A DNA stretch of 18,384 nt. Origin: Candidatus Aenigmatarchaeota archaeon. Its GTDB lineage: Archaea > Aenigmatarchaeota > Aenigmatarchaeia > QMZP01 > JAFGSV01. This document shows, in pieces, positions 12,260 to 17,578 of this stretch (position 1 is its first letter; the number at the start of each line of letters is the position of its first letter). The stretch covers positions 1 through 18,384 of the forward strand of contig JAUXKD010000001.1 of the NCBI GenBank assembly GCA_030624445.1, given 5' to 3'. The notes beneath the pieces were generated by a model. That model saw only the letters and a list, made by a program, of their open reading frames with translations. It had not been told where the DNA came from and searched no databases. Made by a program: the position numbers and the translations under genes.

Positions 12260-12445
12260 TGGGGCCGCGGAGATCTGTTCAAGCATTTTACCATTACGAC
12301 GAGCGGCTTCTTTGGAGATTCATCCGTTCACGTTTCAGAGGAAATCATGGGTGTGTCGCCGCCATTAATCCGGGCAAAAAGCTTATTGAACTCCGGTTAC
12401 GAGGCCCCCAGCCTCGAGTGATAGACCAAGCTACACTACGGCCCC
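12260..12445 (-). tRNA. tRNA-Pro (GGG) with one T-loop intron
   Basis: Read on -, acceptor GGGGCCG (12445-12439) pairs with CGGCCCC (12267-12261), discriminator A at 12260, no CCA. The anticodon arm is CGAGG-CTGGGGG-CCTCG, giving anticodon GGG. The T-stem is CGGAG/CTCCG. Its loop is split by a 111-nt intron (12275-12385) after A58. The bulge-helix-bulge pairing is excellent: central helix GTTC/GAAC, bulges AAT and AGA, and inner helix AAGC/GCTT directly adjoining. Removing it gives T-loop TTCAAAT and a 75-nt tRNA. The D-stem has one T-T mismatch. Confidence 0.92.
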
Positions 12446-12502
12446 TTCTGTTGTGACTTTCTGATGTGAAGTATTGTATGAATTAATATATATGTAAATA
12501 TA

Positions 12503-12719
12503 TGGGGCCGCCGAGATTCCCACCGTCTCCTTCACATTTTCCGTCAGCCGCTTCTTGCGACATGAGGGTCCACGGCGCGGTGAAAGAGTGGTTTTGAACT
12601 CAGGTCTTGGACTCCCGAAGCCCAGATGCTAGACCACTGAAGGGCCTCACCCCTATAACAGATGTGTTCCCGTTGAAGTCGTTTACACAAAGGAGCAGGC
12701 CTAACTACACTACGGCCCC
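12503..12719 (-). tRNA. tRNA-Pro (CGG) with D-loop and T-loop introns
   Basis: Read on -, acceptor GGGGCCG (12719-12713) pairs with CGGCCCC (12510-12504), discriminator A at 12503. The anticodon arm is TGGGC-TTCGGGA-GTCCA, anticodon CGG. The T-stem CTGAG/CTCGG encloses a 76-nt intron (12517-12592) after position 59, with central helix TTCA/TGGG (two G-T pairs) and bulges AAA and AAT. A second, 66-nt intron (about 12637-12702) splits the D-loop. Its inner helix GGCCT/AGGCC adjoins the splice bulges, and its removal gives D-loop AGTTTGGTCTA, one base different from tRNA-Pro(GGG). The mature length is 75 nt. The D-loop splice register could be shifted by a few bases. Confidence 0.88.
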
Positions 12720-12947
12720 GTGTATCTATCTATATTGATTCAGCTAATAAATAAAAATTGAGTACAGAGAGACCGGAAGACGGGAGATCGTCGAATCGCT
12801 AATAAGAGATTACGCATGCTGCAAATCCGAATCCCACTGCATTCCGGGAATCGTAACATGACTCCTTCAGATATTGGTCGTTCTGAATATATTTATAAAT
12901 TTACGATACAATTATGCTTAGATTTAATTGCGGTGAGAGTTGATAGC
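12720..12947. other. Spacer between tRNA-Pro (CGG) and the secreted-protein gene
   Basis: About 230 nt with no convincing gene. AT-rich DNA at 12726-12760 may hold the promoter of the tRNA on -. The part 12770-12865 is more GC-rich and has short partial repeats, but it gives no tRNA fold. ATATTTATAAAT at 12889-12900 is the likely TATA box of the next + gene. Confidence 0.4.
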
Positions 12948-14300
12948 GTGAAGTATCTGATTTCGGGGTTTGTCTGCTTGATTTTCCTCGCGTCAGTCGG
13001 TCTTTCCGCTGCACAGAAGATTGGCATGGAGGTTTCACCCGAGGAACGGACGGTAAACTTGGGGAAGGCCGCCATATTCGAAGTCAAGCTCGAAAACAAG
13101 ATGATGAGGACCGATGATTTCTACTTTTTTGTTACCGGAAGGCCTTCGCACTGGATAAATCTTGACACCAGTTACCTCATATTGCCTCCCCTTGTCACCG
13201 AGGATGTTAAAATCGAGTTTTATCCCAACGACGAACCGGGTGTTTATGATTACGATGTCTTTTTCCAGTCCGCGGATGAACCTGATATTGTTGTAAGCAA
13301 AAGAATACGCCTGAGGGTCCTGTACGAAGGGAGAAAAATTGAAGTGCTGGACCATGAAATCTGGAGAGAGGGTGACAGCATAAAGATGAGAGTGGATATC
13401 TTTTCAAACATTGAGGATGAAGTCACGATGGATTTCTCGCTCTCGGGCAGTTCTGGAAAAACCATCGCCACGGCCACGCGCACATTCACCGTGCAAGGGG
13501 AAGAAACCATAACCCATACGTTGACAATCCCTTCGGATATTGTCGCGGACACGTACGTTGCAAAGATCGTGGTAAAGGAAACTGAAGAGGAATTCCAGTC
13601 GTCTTTCGATATCGAACCCGTGAGCAAGATGGTAAAAACGGACAGTGAAATCGACACCCTCTTTTTCCATGAGAGCAGGATAACCCTTTCGAATGAGGGC
13701 AATGTCATTGAAGAAGACTACAAGGTCGTGTCAGACATCCCGACCGGTCTCGTGACCTTTTTCAAACAGCCTGAGAAATGCGAGGATAACGAGTGCGAAT
13801 GGATCATTGGCAAGCTCAATCCAGATGAAAGCCTCCAGATCATATACAGGCTGGAATACTGGCCCCTCTTTCTCCAGGGTATGGTGATATCCGTACTGCT
13901 GGTCTCATTTTTCGTGTTTGCATGGAAAAGGGCCAACACGCCGGTGCTGAAAAAGGAGATTGAGAAAAAGGGTGAAGGGGCTTACACCGCCGTCATCGAA
14001 ATAAAGAACCCGGGTAAAAAGATAACGAACGTAGTCATCAGGGACCACGTCTCGCCCCTTTTCAAGGTAGGAAGGGAATTCGAGAGCGTGAAACCTGCAA
14101 TCAGGGAGACCGAAGAGGGGACAGAACTGGTATGGTCAATCGCGTCGATAGAGCCGAAGGATCATAGAATGCTGCATTACAGCATAAAGCCGTTGGTGAG
14201 CGGTCAGCTGAAGATGACCAAGGCGTACATGAGGTATGTGACCGCCAAGGGCAAGAGGTCAAAGGTAGAATCCAAAGAAAAAGGCCTTTCTGCCGCCTGA
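12948..14300 (+). CDS. Secreted one-TM protein with repeated beta-sandwich domains
   Basis: 450 residues, family not assigned. An N-terminal signal peptide (MKYLISGFVCLIFLASVGLS, residues 1-20) is followed by about 285 residues of beta-rich sequence with features of CARDB/NEW3-like domains (VSPEERTVNLGKAAIFEVKL near the start of the mature protein). Then come a KCEDNECEW cysteine pair, a transmembrane helix (about 307-326) and a basic flank. A cytoplasmic region of about 120 residues is itself beta-domain-like (YTAVIEIKNPGKKITNVVIRDHVSP). GTG 12948 is chosen because GGTGAG lies about 10 nt upstream and the signal peptide begins there. GTG 12933 is possible. The frame extends further up but through the promoter (TATA at 12889-12900). 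Possibly a surface or envelope protein. Confidence 0.75.
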   Translation: MKYLISGFVCLIFLASVGLSAAQKIGMEVSPEERTVNLGKAAIFEVKLENKMMRTDDFYFFVTGRPSHWINLDTSYLILPPLVTEDVKIEFYPNDEPGVYDYDVFFQSADEPDIVVSKRIRLRVLYEGRKIEVLDHEIWREGDSIKMRVDIFSNIEDEVTMDFSLSGSSGKTIATATRTFTVQGEETITHTLTIPSDIVADTYVAKIVVKETEEEFQSSFDIEPVSKMVKTDSEIDTLFFHESRITLSNEGNVIEEDYKVVSDIPTGLVTFFKQPEKCEDNECEWIIGKLNPDESLQIIYRLEYWPLFLQGMVISVLLVSFFVFAWKRANTPVLKKEIEKKGEGAYTAVIEIKNPGKKITNVVIRDHVSPLFKVGREFESVKPAIRETEEGTELVWSIASIEPKDHRMLHYSIKPLVSGQLKMTKAYMRYVTAKGKRSKVESKEKGLSAA

Positions 14301-14378
14301 AGTCTTTCAGGTTCCGGCAAAACATGGGTAAAAGCCTGCATTAAATTTTTAAGGTTTCTCCGTTATATTGAATTAAGT

Positions 14379-14594
14379 CCCGAGGTAGCTCAGACTGGCT
14401 AGAGCGATCGGCTGTAGACGGGCACACCGTGATGTAAACACGGTCTGATGAGTGTGTTTGTTAGACGCAGTCGCTCGAAAGAGACCGATAGGTCGGGAGT
14501 TCAAAAGCCCGCTTTTCCCAGGAACTTCAGCCCCGTCACCAGAAAAACGGGCGAAGAAAAATGGAAATGCAGGCTGGCAATCTCCCCCTCGGGA
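14379..14594 (+). tRNA. tRNA-Tyr (GTA) with anticodon-loop and T-loop introns
   Basis: Acceptor CCCGAGG (14379-14385) pairs with CCTCGGG (14587-14593), discriminator A. C1-G72 is the archaeal tyrosine identity pair. D-stem GCTC/GAGC. The anticodon arm is ATCGG-CTGTAGA-CCGAT, anticodon GTA. A canonical 37/38 intron of 66 nt (14418-14483) has bulges AGA and AGA and inner helix CGGGC/GCTCG. A second intron of 75 nt (14506-14580) sits at 59/60 in the T-loop between stems GGGAG (14495-14499) and CTCCC (14582-14586), with bulges AAA and AAT and inner helix GCC/GGC. The mature length is 75 nt. CCA is not encoded. A TATA-like AAATTTTTAAGG (14343-14354) precedes it. Confidence 0.94.
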
Positions 14595-14650
14595 TGATTT
14601 TTATTTTTTTACCTATTGCATTTTTTTATAATGAGCATCAATAATGTATT

Positions 14651-15727
14651 ATGAACCGTGACCTGAAAGCCATAACACCCGTAATATCCATTATAATTCT
14701 CCTGCTTATAACAGTCGCCCTTGCGGGGGCCTCATGGTCCTTCATCTCAGGCTACTGGTCAGGCATGACTGGAAAGCAGATAGAAGTGACTGATTCGTTT
14801 TGCGTTGGCGGTAATAGGGGAAAAGTTTTCATAAAGAACATAGGTTCGGGTGACATAAGAACCGCAGACGTCAGAGTGATAGACAAGGAAACGGGCATCG
14901 ACGTCACAAGCGAGGCGATTTGGAGCACTAAAGCGCCAAGGTCCGGGCTGGTGCTCGAATTTAAGCTTGAGGATGGGAGCGGCACAAATGCAGGGGATAC
15001 CTCGGGATATGGTAACGACGGTGCCCTTTTGCCCACTGGAGTGGAGCCGACTTGGGGCACGGGGAGAAAAGGCGGCGGCCTGGAATTCGATGGTATAAGC
15101 GGTTATGTTGATGCAGGAACTGATTCTAGCCTGGACATGACGAATGCCATTACAATCAGTGCCTGGGCTAAGAATATTGGCAATAACACGAACGGCTGGT
15201 CTGCCGGTAATCGCTATGATGATGTAGTCACCAAATGGGATTGCACGGGCAGTTGCTCTGAAACTAGTTGGTGGTTTGGAATAACTTCTGACGGCCGCGT
15301 CTCTTGGGTGGTGATTAATTCCACAGGCCGGTACACAATTCTCGGCGCAAGAGGCACAACCATCATCAGAGATGATTCGGAGTGGCATCACATCGCCGTG
15401 ACTTACGACGGATCGAACGTGATGATATACGTTGATGGAATTGTCGAATTCGAAAAGAGTTATTCGGAGGGCATCAATGTAAACTCCAGCATACCAATAA
15501 GAATAGCGGCTTCCGGACATGTCCTTCCCGGTGCTTTTAACGGCACCATAGACGAGGTCAAGGTCTACAACAGGTCGCTTTCCAATGATGAGATAGAAGC
15601 TCTCATGAATGACAACGAAATCCTAATTTCTGGGGAAACGATGACCATGACGCGTCCCTGCAGTAACAGGTGCAACTACAGAATTATCTATGGCGGAGTG
15701 TCAAGGTCTGCAATTGTCCAGTGCTGA
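14651..15727 (+). CDS. Pilin-like protein with embedded LamG (concanavalin-like) domain
   Basis: 358 residues. The N-terminus MNRDLKAITPVISIIILLLI, with the hydrophobic run that follows, is an archaeal type IV pilin signal: basic leader, cleavage probably after Ala7, then a hydrophobic assembly helix. A short pilin-type beta region follows (about 40-95). Residues 98-325 form a LamG/concanavalin A-like jelly roll: LVLEFKLEDGSGTNAGDTSG, GLEFDGISGYVDAG, ITISAWAKN, WHHIAVTYDGSNVMIYVDG, and GTIDEVKVYNRSLS. The pilin-type C-terminus then resumes (CSNRCNYRIIYGG to the end), so the lectin-like domain is inserted into the pilin. This implies an adhesive, probably sugar-binding, filament subunit. TATA-like TTTTTTATAA (about 14623-14632) lies some 25 nt before the ATG (leaderless). 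Confidence 0.9.
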   Translation: MNRDLKAITPVISIIILLLITVALAGASWSFISGYWSGMTGKQIEVTDSFCVGGNRGKVFIKNIGSGDIRTADVRVIDKETGIDVTSEAIWSTKAPRSGLVLEFKLEDGSGTNAGDTSGYGNDGALLPTGVEPTWGTGRKGGGLEFDGISGYVDAGTDSSLDMTNAITISAWAKNIGNNTNGWSAGNRYDDVVTKWDCTGSCSETSWWFGITSDGRVSWVVINSTGRYTILGARGTTIIRDDSEWHHIAVTYDGSNVMIYVDGIVEFEKSYSEGINVNSSIPIRIAASGHVLPGAFNGTIDEVKVYNRSLSNDEIEALMNDNEILISGETMTMTRPCSNRCNYRIIYGGVSRSAIVQC

Positions 15728-15730
15728 ATT

Positions 15731-16780
15731 TCAAACAACTGAGAACCCTTTATATCGCTCGGGGACGATAAATCTCGTTCCCACGCAAAGACCATCTGCC
15801 GCCGCCGTTATAGGCCTGAAGTGGTGCGAGTCTCTATCAGGCCTGTCATAGCCTCCGGATGCTACAATCCCATGAATCCCGGATGATGCCATCTTGCGAT
15901 GTGCTTCTATCTTTGACCAAGCCCAGCCCCTGCCCTTTGTTTCTCCATCTTTTTCCGCAACCTCTGATTCCAGGCCTGTCGGGTCCAACACCACTCTGAT
16001 AACTCTTTCCTCAGTTTCTTGACTCCTTCCATCGCTAAAATATGACTTAGGTCTTATCCCTCGCTGGTCGGTAAGAACGACCGACATTATTCTGTCCCGG
16101 TAGTCATCCGTATCGGCAAGACATGTCGTCACAAGAGCGTGAAGTCCGTCATTGTCTCTGAATATATTGTCATTGTCTTCTATTTCTTCCGGACTTCTCA
16201 GATCGTCTTCATTTATGATAGGAACAAAACCGTCTTCCATATATTGCATGTATTTCGCTATGAGTTCTGATCTCGTTTTATCGTCTTCAAAATCGGTGTG
16301 GGTTACTATTGACTGGGAAACAATGATTCCGAGTTCTCCAAAATATTGCTGGTAAAGGTTCATCAAACCGGGCTGGCCTATCCCTGCATACAATCTCTTT
16401 CTGTCAGAATCGGTATAATCCTTCATTTTCAAATCTCTGTAGTATTTCTGGTTCATCTGAATTATTTTTTCTCCCTGCCGAATTGCACCGGAAGTTGTTA
16501 TGAAAACTTTTCTGCTTTTTCCAGGGTTTCTCAATAGATAGTTAACCTCATCTGCAATGCAACTTATTACTTTCCTTGTTCTTTCCATTAGACCGTGACT
16601 TATAACACCCGTGCCGAACTTTAATCCAACAACATCTATTTCATCCATATCAGGAACGTATGATTTATAGTTTTCCCTGGATTCTTTGTACATTGGCCTT
16701 TCCCTTCTCCCATCCCATACATAAAAATTTGATTCAGGAAGTTCCGAATGCATAGTTCTATGAAGACTTTCTTGTTCCAT
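15731..16780 (-). CDS. Glutamate 5-kinase-like amino-acid kinase
   Basis: 349 residues, amino-acid kinase superfamily. Parts matching glutamate 5-kinase in order: VVGLKFGTGVISHG (phosphate-binding strand-loop, about 50-63), ITTSGAIRQGEK (about 94-105), AGIGQPGLMNLYQQYFGELGI (about 132-152), FVPIINEDD (about 186-194), FRDNDGLHALV (substrate Asn/Asp, about 208-218), VVLTDQRGI (about 235-243) and KGRGWAWSKIEAH (about 282-294). The last replaces the usual GTGGMxTK motif, so it is a divergent member. No PUA domain follows. No proA or proC partner is in the window, and the gene is more AT-rich than most of the window, which suggests transfer or a different substrate. TATA-like sequence at 16811-16824 serves the - strand. 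Confidence 0.82.
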   Translation of the reverse strand: MEQESLHRTMHSELPESNFYVWDGRRERPMYKESRENYKSYVPDMDEIDVVGLKFGTGVISHGLMERTRKVISCIADEVNYLLRNPGKSRKVFITTSGAIRQGEKIIQMNQKYYRDLKMKDYTDSDRKRLYAGIGQPGLMNLYQQYFGELGIIVSQSIVTHTDFEDDKTRSELIAKYMQYMEDGFVPIINEDDLRSPEEIEDNDNIFRDNDGLHALVTTCLADTDDYRDRIMSVVLTDQRGIRPKSYFSDGRSQETEERVIRVVLDPTGLESEVAEKDGETKGRGWAWSKIEAHRKMASSGIHGIVASGGYDRPDRDSHHFRPITAAADGLCVGTRFIVPERYKGFSVV

Positions 16781-16960
16781 CTTATCACGTGTTATTACTA
16801 TAATATAGTTAATTTATAAATATTATGTTTGTGCGTGTATAAAATTCTATTGTAACAAATCCGTTTGCTCAGAATCCTAACGCAAAGAATTAACGCGGTT
16901 GGTCCGCATCTGCTTCGCAGGACAGAACTCGTCCCGTCATCTTCACAAAAGATCGGATTA

Positions 16961-16971
16961 AATTTATAAAT
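16961..16971 (+). promoter_or_regulatory. TATA box of the 5S rRNA gene
   Basis: AATTTATAAAT is centred about 25 nt before the first 5S base. Confidence 0.6.
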
Positions 16972-16991
16972 GCTTGGCATAATATATACTC

Positions 16992-17098
16992 GGCGGCCAA
17001 AGTGGAGAGGTTTACCCGTTCCCATTTCGAACACGGAAGTCAAGCTCTCCGACGGTCTGGGTGGTACTGGCTTCGGCTGGAAAGCCCAGATCGCTGCC
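16992..17098 (+). rRNA. 5S ribosomal RNA
   Basis: Terminal helix GGCGGC (16992-16997) pairs with GCTGCC (17093-17098). The universally conserved loop B/helix III block is present (CCCGTTCCCATTTCGAACAC and then GGAAGTCAAGC). Helix II GGAGAGG pairs with CTCTCC. The GGTCTGGGTGGTACTGG part follows the usual 3' domain. About 107 nt is slightly short, so the ends may extend a few bases. It stands alone, without 16S or 23S genes, as in many DPANN and some other archaea. Confidence 0.95.
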
Positions 17099-17181
17099 AA
17101 TCTTAATGTTTTCTGACATCGCCCTTCTTCCTGTCTTCTTTTGATGATTTCCCGTGTATAAATTCGTCCGGAAATGCAAAA

Positions 17182-17192
17182 GCTTTAAATTA
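17182..17192 (+). promoter_or_regulatory. TATA-like box of tRNA-Asp
   Basis: CTTTAAATTAT lies about 25-30 nt before the tRNA-Asp 5' end. Confidence 0.45.
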
Positions 17193-17216
17193 TGTCCGAA
17201 TAAAAATATTCAGAGT

Positions 17217-17317
17217 GCCTTGGTAGTGTAGTGGTCTAATTGGTACACGAAGTGTATCAAGACTAAGCATATGGGACTGTCACTCCCATGACCCGGGTTC
17301 AAATCCCGGCCAAGGCG
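17217..17317 (+). tRNA. tRNA-Asp (GTC) with a 27-nt D-loop intron
   Basis: Acceptor GCCTTGG (17217-17223) pairs with CCAAGGC (17310-17316), discriminator G at 17317, no CCA. The anticodon arm is TGGGA-CTGTCAC-TCCCA, anticodon GTC. The T-arm CCGGG-TTCAAAT-CCCGG is uninterrupted. The D-loop holds a 27-nt insertion (about 17239-17265): inner helix TTGGTACAC/GTGTATCAA with a GAA loop, flanked by two TAA bulges and a 3-bp GTC/GAC helix, a small near-canonical bulge-helix-bulge. Removal leaves D-loop AGTGGTCTAA and a 74-nt tRNA. Confidence 0.93.
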
Positions 17318-17345
17318 TACTGATGCACACTTTTAAAATATAAAA

Positions 17346-17371
17346 CCATTCCTACAATAATTTAGGAATGG
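17346..17371 (+). repeat. 9-bp perfect inverted repeat at the tRNA-Lys 5' end
   Basis: CCATTCCTA (17346-17354) and TAGGAATGG (17363-17371) are separated by 8 nt, and the second arm includes the first two bases of tRNA-Lys. TATA-like CTTTTAAAATATAAAA lies just upstream (17330-17345). Confidence 0.6.
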
Positions 17372-17578
17372 GCCCGTAGCTCAGTCTGGCTAGAGCACCA
17401 GACGAGTGCGTCGTTTCGGCGCACCAGGTGAAGCTTTTAATGTCATTAAAAGCGTGTTTACTGCCTCCGCTGAGGGGGCGGGATGACAGAATAAACCTGG
17501 GTGTCGCGGGTTCGAAGCAACAGCTTTTCCGGAAGCATCCGTTTTCAGAAAGGCTTTGCGGAAATCCCGTCGGGCCCA
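17370..17578 (+). tRNA. tRNA-Lys (TTT) with three introns
   Basis: Acceptor GGGCCCG (17370-17376) pairs with CGGGCCC (17571-17577), discriminator A. D-stem GCTC/GAGC. Three introns. (1) 30/31, 31 nt (17402-17432): outer helix AGAG/CTTT, central helix CACC/GGTG, bulges AGA and AAG, an ideal motif. (2) 37/38, 55 nt (17440-17494): inner helix TGTCAT/ATGACA, bulges TAA and AAA. (3) 59/60 in the T-loop, 48 nt (17517-17564): central helix TTCG/CGGA, bulges AAG and AAT. The spliced anticodon arm is CCAGG-CTTTTAA-CCTGG and the T-arm GCGGG-TTCGAAT-CCCGT. The mature length is 75 nt. The body resembles archaeal tRNA-Lys. Confidence 0.92.

Follow-up and report, generated by a model that had tools for sequence, protein, structure and literature searches.

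Densely interrupted tRNA genes and two splicing endonuclease genes in a genome of Candidatus Aenigmatarchaeota

All five transfer RNA (tRNA) genes in an 18,384-nucleotide (nt) stretch of DNA from a Candidatus Aenigmatarchaeota archaeon (assembly GCA_030624445.1, contig JAUXKD010000001.1, here C57; the whole stretch is called the window) are interrupted by introns, which number nine, sum to 556 nt and lie outside the canonical site 37/38 in seven cases. Removing them gave a standard cloverleaf for each of the five tRNAs, a bulge-helix-bulge (BHB) motif was present at all nine splice sites, and the genome carries two splicing endonuclease genes, one of the epsilon type (contig C80) and one of the alpha type (contig C40). 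We think it likely that these are nine BHB introns in five functional aenigmatarchaeal tRNA genes, that they would be excised by a splicing endonuclease of broad specificity before the tRNAs are used, and that their density arose partly because some introns spread between tRNA genes, as an intron family shared among the tRNA genes of relatives suggests. The genes and introns, with spliced tRNA scores and BHB scores after boundary refinement, are as follows.

12260..12445, minus strand: tRNA-Pro(GGG) gene, one intron; spliced 75 nt, score 56.4
12275..12385, minus strand: Pro(GGG) intron at 58/59, T-loop, 111 nt; BHB 12.6, central helix 4/4
12503..12719, minus strand: tRNA-Pro(CGG) gene, two introns; spliced 75 nt, score 56.9
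12637..12702, minus strand: Pro(CGG) intron at 17/17a, D-loop, 66 nt; relaxed BHB 10.1 (central helix 3/4, inner helix 5, outer helix 0.6)
12517..12592, minus strand: Pro(CGG) intron at 59/60, T-loop, 76 nt; BHB 11.4
14379..14594, plus strand: tRNA-Tyr(GTA) gene, two introns; spliced 75 nt, score 62.0
14418..14483, plus strand: Tyr intron at 37/38 (canonical), 66 nt; BHB 14.1
14506..14580, plus strand: Tyr intron at 59/60, 75 nt; BHB 11.9; similar to the spreading intron family
17217..17317, plus strand: tRNA-Asp(GTC) gene, one intron; spliced 73 nt, score 57.1
17239..17266, plus strand: Asp intron at 21/22, D-arm, 28 nt; relaxed BHB 10.0, without outer helix
17370..17578, plus strand: tRNA-Lys(TTT) gene, three introns; spliced 75 nt, score 61.8
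17402..17432, plus strand: Lys intron at 30/31, 31 nt; BHB 9.6, central helix 4/4, without inner helix
17440..17494, plus strand: Lys intron at 37/38 (canonical), 55 nt; BHB 13.9
17517..17564, plus strand: Lys intron at 59/60, 48 nt; BHB 13.0; possible member of the spreading family

ARAGORN called no tRNA in the window, and Rfam recognised a single partial tRNA and a 5S ribosomal RNA (rRNA). The five genes were recovered by a purpose-written cloverleaf parser in which introns are permitted at any position, and boundaries were refined by combining the tRNA score with the BHB score over up to 135 slides (the boundary and length of the D-loop intron of Pro(CGG) were altered by this refinement relative to the first parse). 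Parser scores were 46.8-52.9 before refinement, and the refined spliced scores of 56.4-62.0 compare with 54.5-60.9 for the four intact tRNA genes of the genome, while the best of 80 dinucleotide shuffles reached a parser score of 26.2. In a scan of both strands of the window in 202 overlapping tiles, the top five covered the five genes (tRNA-Tyr, split by a tile border, scored 34.3) and the other 197 remained at or below 28.2. The BHB scores of the nine sites (9.6-14.1, compared with a mean of 2.9 at random sites) individually exceed in six cases the 95% point of 10.7 of a best-of-280 null, which was derived from a different locus, and on these motifs the introns are classified as archaeal BHB introns, strict or relaxed. 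An earlier note on this DNA had described the same nine introns (one, two, two, one and three per gene, seven outside 37/38) and a total of about 555 nt, all of which the parser, with its controls passed, bears out; its mature tRNAs of 74-75 nt are right in their cloverleafs and close in length (four measure 75 nt, tRNA-Asp 73 nt).

The density extends to the rest of this metagenome-assembled genome (657,772 bases, 134 contigs, 66.95% complete, 0.16% contaminated). Loci were collected by a loose Rfam search (19 matches at E<=10) and with the T-arm pattern RGTTCRAA (95 matches, a count not above its control, 73 of which were parsed); the parsed matches comprised one known gene again, six tRNAs scoring at least 40.4 (two of which had been weak Rfam matches) and 66 matches scoring at most 30.0. 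The pattern overlooks tRNAs in which position 59 is not A, the match C80:3319 inside the epsilon gene was unparsed, and the resulting set of 27 tRNA genes is incomplete. Among these 27, 23 are interrupted and four intact (Val CAC, Arg CCT, Phe GAA and His GTG). The statement of the earlier note that every tRNA is interrupted thus holds within the window and fails for these four, and its expectation for the rest of the set is correct for 18 of the 22 further genes, i.e., mostly but not wholly. The parses place 13 introns in the T-loop (58/59 or 59/60), 12 at 37/38, six in the D-arm, three at 30/31 and one each at 8/9, 32/33 and 38/39. The total of 37 includes uncertain parses at two loci, Arg(TCT) (L070) for its anticodon-arm introns and the gene with anticodon TAT (L022) for its anticodon intron; the uncertain sites are 32/33 and 38/39. 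A candidate acceptor-stem intron of Ser(GCT) arose from a tie in the parser and was discarded in favour of a better-fitting 47-nt intron at 8/9 (BHB 13.0). Rfam at E<=1e-3 yields 13 tRNA matches genome-wide compared with the 27 parsed genes; standard searches overlook about half of the genes, and tRNA counts for such archaea are therefore biased.

The earlier note had expected a relaxed endonuclease such as the fused epsilon type, and such a gene is present. The 398-amino-acid (aa) open reading frame (ORF) on C80 aligns over its full length with the epsilon enzyme of ARMAN-2 (archaeal Richmond Mine acidophilic nanoorganism 2; 4fz2, E=1.2e-96, residues 5-397 against 8-387), and Pfam recognised one domain in it. 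In the ARMAN-2 enzyme, cleavage needs the residues Y160/K161 of the ARMAN-specific loop and the triad Y236/H251/K282 (PMC12397907), and all five positions align to identical residues in the C80 protein. Among 18 aligned epsilon proteins the triad is kept in 18 and the loop Tyr-Lys in 17, the protein of G025 showing Tyr-Arg. In length, full-length homology, loop and triad the C80 protein thus resembles the epsilon2 enzyme of Ca. Micrarchaeum acidiphilum ARMAN-2 (4fz2, 9w2k; PMC12397907), and by these features it is an epsilon-type splicing endonuclease of the fused, ~390-aa, three-unit protomer class. The mostly intact tRNA set with a strict alpha enzyme as sole endonuclease, which the earlier note had named as the outcome contrary to its view, is not what the genome contains (23 of 27 interrupted, epsilon present). 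Its suggested setting, ARMAN/Micrarchaeota or Crenarchaeota, does not apply, the lineage being Aenigmatarchaeota. A third endonuclease candidate on C104 fell below the Pfam cut-off and by eye resembles an AsnC/Lrp regulator.

The alpha gene on C40 had been overlooked in the earlier note. It encodes a single-domain alpha protein that, like M. jannaschii EndA (1a79), contains both Pfam domains (PF01974 and PF02778) and keeps the catalytic Tyr and His, but has Ala at the position of the catalytic lysine of that enzyme (which we take to be Lys156) and a longer Tyr-His loop with a Lys. Because the catalytic lysine is absent, we do not assign the protein to the standard alpha4 type. This lysine is missing in 33 of 33 alpha sequences from genomes of the class; among the best 80 of 541 named relatives, which are mostly Candidatus Aenigmatarchaeota, the position holds Ala (68), Thr (4), Ser (3) or Lys (5), and the catalytic His is kept in all 80. 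Two sets overlapping in genomes gave 113 alpha sequences, 107 of them scoreable by pattern: all 103 lysine-less sequences have a Tyr-His loop of at least 14 residues containing [G/D]xK, and all four that retain the catalytic lysine have a shorter loop. The exchange of lysine for loop is not absolute, because Nanoarchaeum 3iey_A combines both. Misbinning of C40 is unlikely because the alpha gene adjoins tRNA genes in the genome itself (G000) and in G002, G005, G034 and G065.

A further feature missed by the earlier note is the likeness of T-loop introns across tRNA genes. Near-identical introns in different tRNA genes were seen in the relatives G005 and G002. In G005, from the window's family, 10 of 14 parsed tRNA loci are interrupted, and Asp, Ser(GGA) and Gly(GCC) share a near-identical intron at 59/60 (the Gly copy has an additional stretch); between different tRNAs of the relatives, introns at this site show 86-100% likeness across the aligned part. 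Searches with the Asp intron against six genomes of the family, and then with a composite of such introns against 145 relatives, revealed 14 distinct places in seven of the 145 genomes, namely 11 tRNA genes resolved by the parser (40.8-52.8), the tRNA-Tyr of G024 (L266, parser score 26-28, solved by hand), a weak Leu(TAA) locus (L269, 35.9) and a 16S rRNA gene. Ten of the tRNA copies are inserted at 59/60, and three loci needed re-cut segments (L257 from 30.5 to 50.6, L267 from 24.5 to 40.8, L273 from 29.1 to 46.5). A core pattern, written after the family had been seen, occurs at 19 distinct places in 667 kb enriched in tRNA loci and at two in the reversed sequence; two of the 19 (L100, L224) are by eye unlike tRNA or rRNA introns. 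RNAalifold gave no consensus structure across 19 mixed intron sequences, and no Rfam family was matched by the Asp intron of G005. For the window, the Tyr 59/60 intron scored 33 and 32 against the family (95% point of the null 24, reached in none of 200 shuffles) and the Lys 59/60 intron 29 (reached in one of 200), which suggests membership for the former and makes it possible for the latter. Elsewhere in the genome, the Gly(GCC) intron matched the Arg(TCT) intron of G005 with a score of 73 (shuffle maximum 29), and Pro(GGG) and Arg(GCG), uninterrupted in G005, are interrupted here.

The 16S copy of the intron family lies in a gene of G003 (L272 636-2433, G003:C23; Rfam RF01959, 1317 bits) with four core-pattern matches near 1004, 1338, 1499 and 2218 of L272. 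In G024, a LAGLIDADG protein of ~207 aa (PF14528, 4.5e-10) is encoded within tRNA-Tyr (L266 736-1578, G024:C34); its gene is best read as lying in a 639-nt intron at 35/36 (BHB 10.4, not significant alone, the boundary being the best of 1,287 pairs), followed by 2 nt, a 64-nt canonical intron and then the family intron at 59/60. The protein is one conceivable vehicle of intron spread, and no relative of it was found in phage records. By eye, the 64-nt stretch resembles the canonical intron of the window's tRNA-Tyr, and a putative membrane-anchored protein gene upstream of tRNA-Tyr (window 12816-14300) has a look-alike at G024 (L266 2-676), which suggests that the two tRNA-Tyr genes are orthologous.

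We propose that the epsilon enzyme, with its ARMAN-specific loop, would be the foremost splicer, with the lysine-less alpha protein possibly a helper or backup. At 59/60, the central helix of the BHB would pair with the near-universal T54-T55-C56-R57, and the T-stem would serve as outer helix; one intron might therefore be spliceable from almost any tRNA. The 59/60 introns thus suggest a simple rule for how introns spread, in which the splice motif makes use of the best-conserved portion of every tRNA. Recombination, reverse transcription and homing are candidate routes of copying.

Several points weigh against this reading. The scoring weights of the parser were set by hand, the genome is incomplete, and three of the nine window BHBs are weak individually (Asp 10.0, Pro(CGG) D-loop 10.1, Lys 30/31 9.6). 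The comparison of the genome's own introns was made with 13 hand-picked introns of relatives; similarity between introns inside the genome reached at best 22 (95% point of the null 26), DNA searches with the family gave no match in it, and the three G003 16S inserts tested have BHB scores of 9.5-10.6, under the null 95% point of 10.7. The distribution of the enzymes offers evidence on both sides: genomes with both enzymes speak for the reading, and noncanonical introns without epsilon (G061) and many Rfam tRNA matches with it (G070) speak against it. In a survey of 41 genomes of the order including our own, with enzyme type read from the ORF length of matches, 15 had alpha and epsilon (G011 on a partial epsilon only), 21 epsilon only, three alpha only and two neither, absences in incomplete genomes carrying little weight; the single-contig genomes G005 and G034 have both enzymes (G001, G004 and G005 belong to the window's family, G034 to its order, G061 to its class). 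G061 (one contig of 874,769 bases, 90% complete) has the lysine-less alpha protein as its only splicing endonuclease match, 13 of its 15 parsed tRNA loci carry introns, and noncanonical sites are among them (59/60 with BHB up to 12.0, 30/31 with 13.0, 53/54 with 10.6, 29/30 with 8.5); because no epsilon match accompanies them, epsilon is not strictly required, and the claim of the earlier note that such density requires a heterotetrameric or epsilon enzyme is not supported. The presence of epsilon does not entail dense introns either: G070 has an epsilon-length protein, no alpha match and 42 Rfam tRNA matches at E<=1e-3, a proxy in which higher counts mean fewer interruptions. By this proxy, G005 and G061 have 8 matches each, G010 10, G009 15, G065 19, G012 24, G034 28, G002 30 and the alpha-only G053 36; the counts vary among alpha-only and epsilon-bearing genomes, and therefore neither enzyme alone predicts density, which by these counts is not tightly coupled to the presence of epsilon. 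As a separate observation, tandem single-domain endonuclease copies (G044, G051, G057, G073) or a protein of ~365-372 aa with two full matches (G049, G066, G077) were seen in other genomes of the class.

If the introns of G061 are spliced, either its long-loop alpha protein must be responsible or an enzyme invisible to Pfam PF01974. This opens the alternative that the lysine-less alpha protein is the main splicer, with epsilon added as a backup and a loop lysine between Tyr and His substituting for the catalytic one, which we regard as possible rather than probable. It is favoured by G061, by the fact that an epsilon query matched only the alpha protein in G061 and 11 other alpha-only genomes (12 of 12), by the loop that accompanies every scored loss of the lysine and by the His kept in all 80 relatives compared; against it, 21 of the 41 genomes, many of them incomplete, show epsilon without alpha, two other archaeal enzymes lost cleavage when this lysine was replaced by Ala (PMC12397907), the link between loop and lysine may stem from one ancestral event, and Nanoarchaeum 3iey_A carries both. 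A wider scenario, which we offer only tentatively, would join these observations: Aenigmatarchaeota and Nanohaloarchaea would splice by an alpha enzyme whose catalytic lysine was relocated to a new loop, so that specificity became relaxed even with no second subunit. Epsilon would later have been gained alongside it in one branch, and a family of BHB introns would thereby have been freed to spread as mobile elements, among tRNAs by way of their universal T-loop site and also into 16S rRNA, with LAGLIDADG genes carried even inside tRNA introns.

It is very improbable that the interruptions stem from decay or assembly error and the genes are tRNA pseudogenes that are never spliced. The silence of ARAGORN, the one partial Rfam match and the fragmented metagenome assembly would fit it, but the spliced scores are like those of the intact tRNAs, the inserts bear BHB motifs, the single-contig genomes G005 and G061 show a like architecture, and Pro(GGG) and Arg(GCG), intact in G005, have clean insertions here. 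Old introns, inherited vertically with each tRNA gene, immobile and retained for a function such as modification guiding, appear to us an unlikely explanation; the resemblance between the canonical Tyr intron and the G024 locus with its shared upstream gene speaks for such descent, as do C/D-box-like words in three canonical introns. The likeness of 59/60 introns between different tRNAs of the relatives, the match between our Gly(GCC) and the G005 Arg(TCT) intron and the differing intron content of Pro(GGG) and Arg(GCG) in G000 and G005 argue instead for spread.

BHB introns and their spread are already known. Multiple-intron tRNAs of Thermoproteales and intron transposition were reportedly treated by Sugahara in 2008 and Fujishima in 2010. 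In Thermoproteales, tRNAs with as many as three introns and the transposition of introns are described (PMC4033280, PMC4090602). Intron gain by an integrating element has been proposed (PMC3293823). Our data resemble the Thermoproteales system in their BHB introns, at most three per tRNA, many noncanonical sites and similar introns across tRNAs; they differ in the phylum, in the endonuclease genes, which are of the epsilon and lysine-less alpha kinds instead of (alpha beta)2, and in that one intron family spans tRNAs and a 16S rRNA gene in the relatives. Inserts in archaeal 16S, and LAGLIDADG genes in many rRNA introns, are likewise found in Thermoproteales, where introns from different 16S loci are too dissimilar for comparison (PMC4496867); in the relatives studied here, by contrast, a common core links many tRNA introns with four inserts in a single 16S gene, and a LAGLIDADG gene lies inside a tRNA gene (G024). 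The epsilon endonuclease is known from ARMAN-1 and ARMAN-2 (PMC4033280), whereas here it occurs in Aenigmatarchaeota, with a separate alpha gene in 15 of the 41 genomes of the order; the available part of PMC12397907 makes no mention of alpha plus epsilon in one genome. According to PMC6379350, all four types of splicing endonuclease conserve the triad. In the open-access literature, as far as it was available, no report was found of Aenigmatarchaeota tRNA introns, of a lysine-less alpha protein beside epsilon, of a LAGLIDADG gene in an archaeal tRNA intron or of a tRNA/16S intron family, and both the enzyme combination and the intron family look new. Extreme tRNA disruption with an epsilon-type endonuclease is thereby extended to Aenigmatarchaeota, genomes with two splicing endonuclease genes exist, and the data point to a widely conserved lysine-less form of an enzyme with a supposedly universal triad.

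Some minor features were also noted. A 5S rRNA gene (Rfam; window 16989-17102) lies upstream of tRNA-Asp and tRNA-Lys. The C/D-box-like words are TGATGA and occur in the canonical introns of Tyr (window 14418-14483), Cys and Ser-TGA (loci L009, L059), which might make these introns candidate modification guides. A tRNA with the Ile-like anticodon TAT was found in G000 and G061 (loci L022, L156). A Leu-like tRNA with anticodon AAG is present in G000 and G005 (loci L095, L248), and A34, as in this anticodon, is unusual in archaea.

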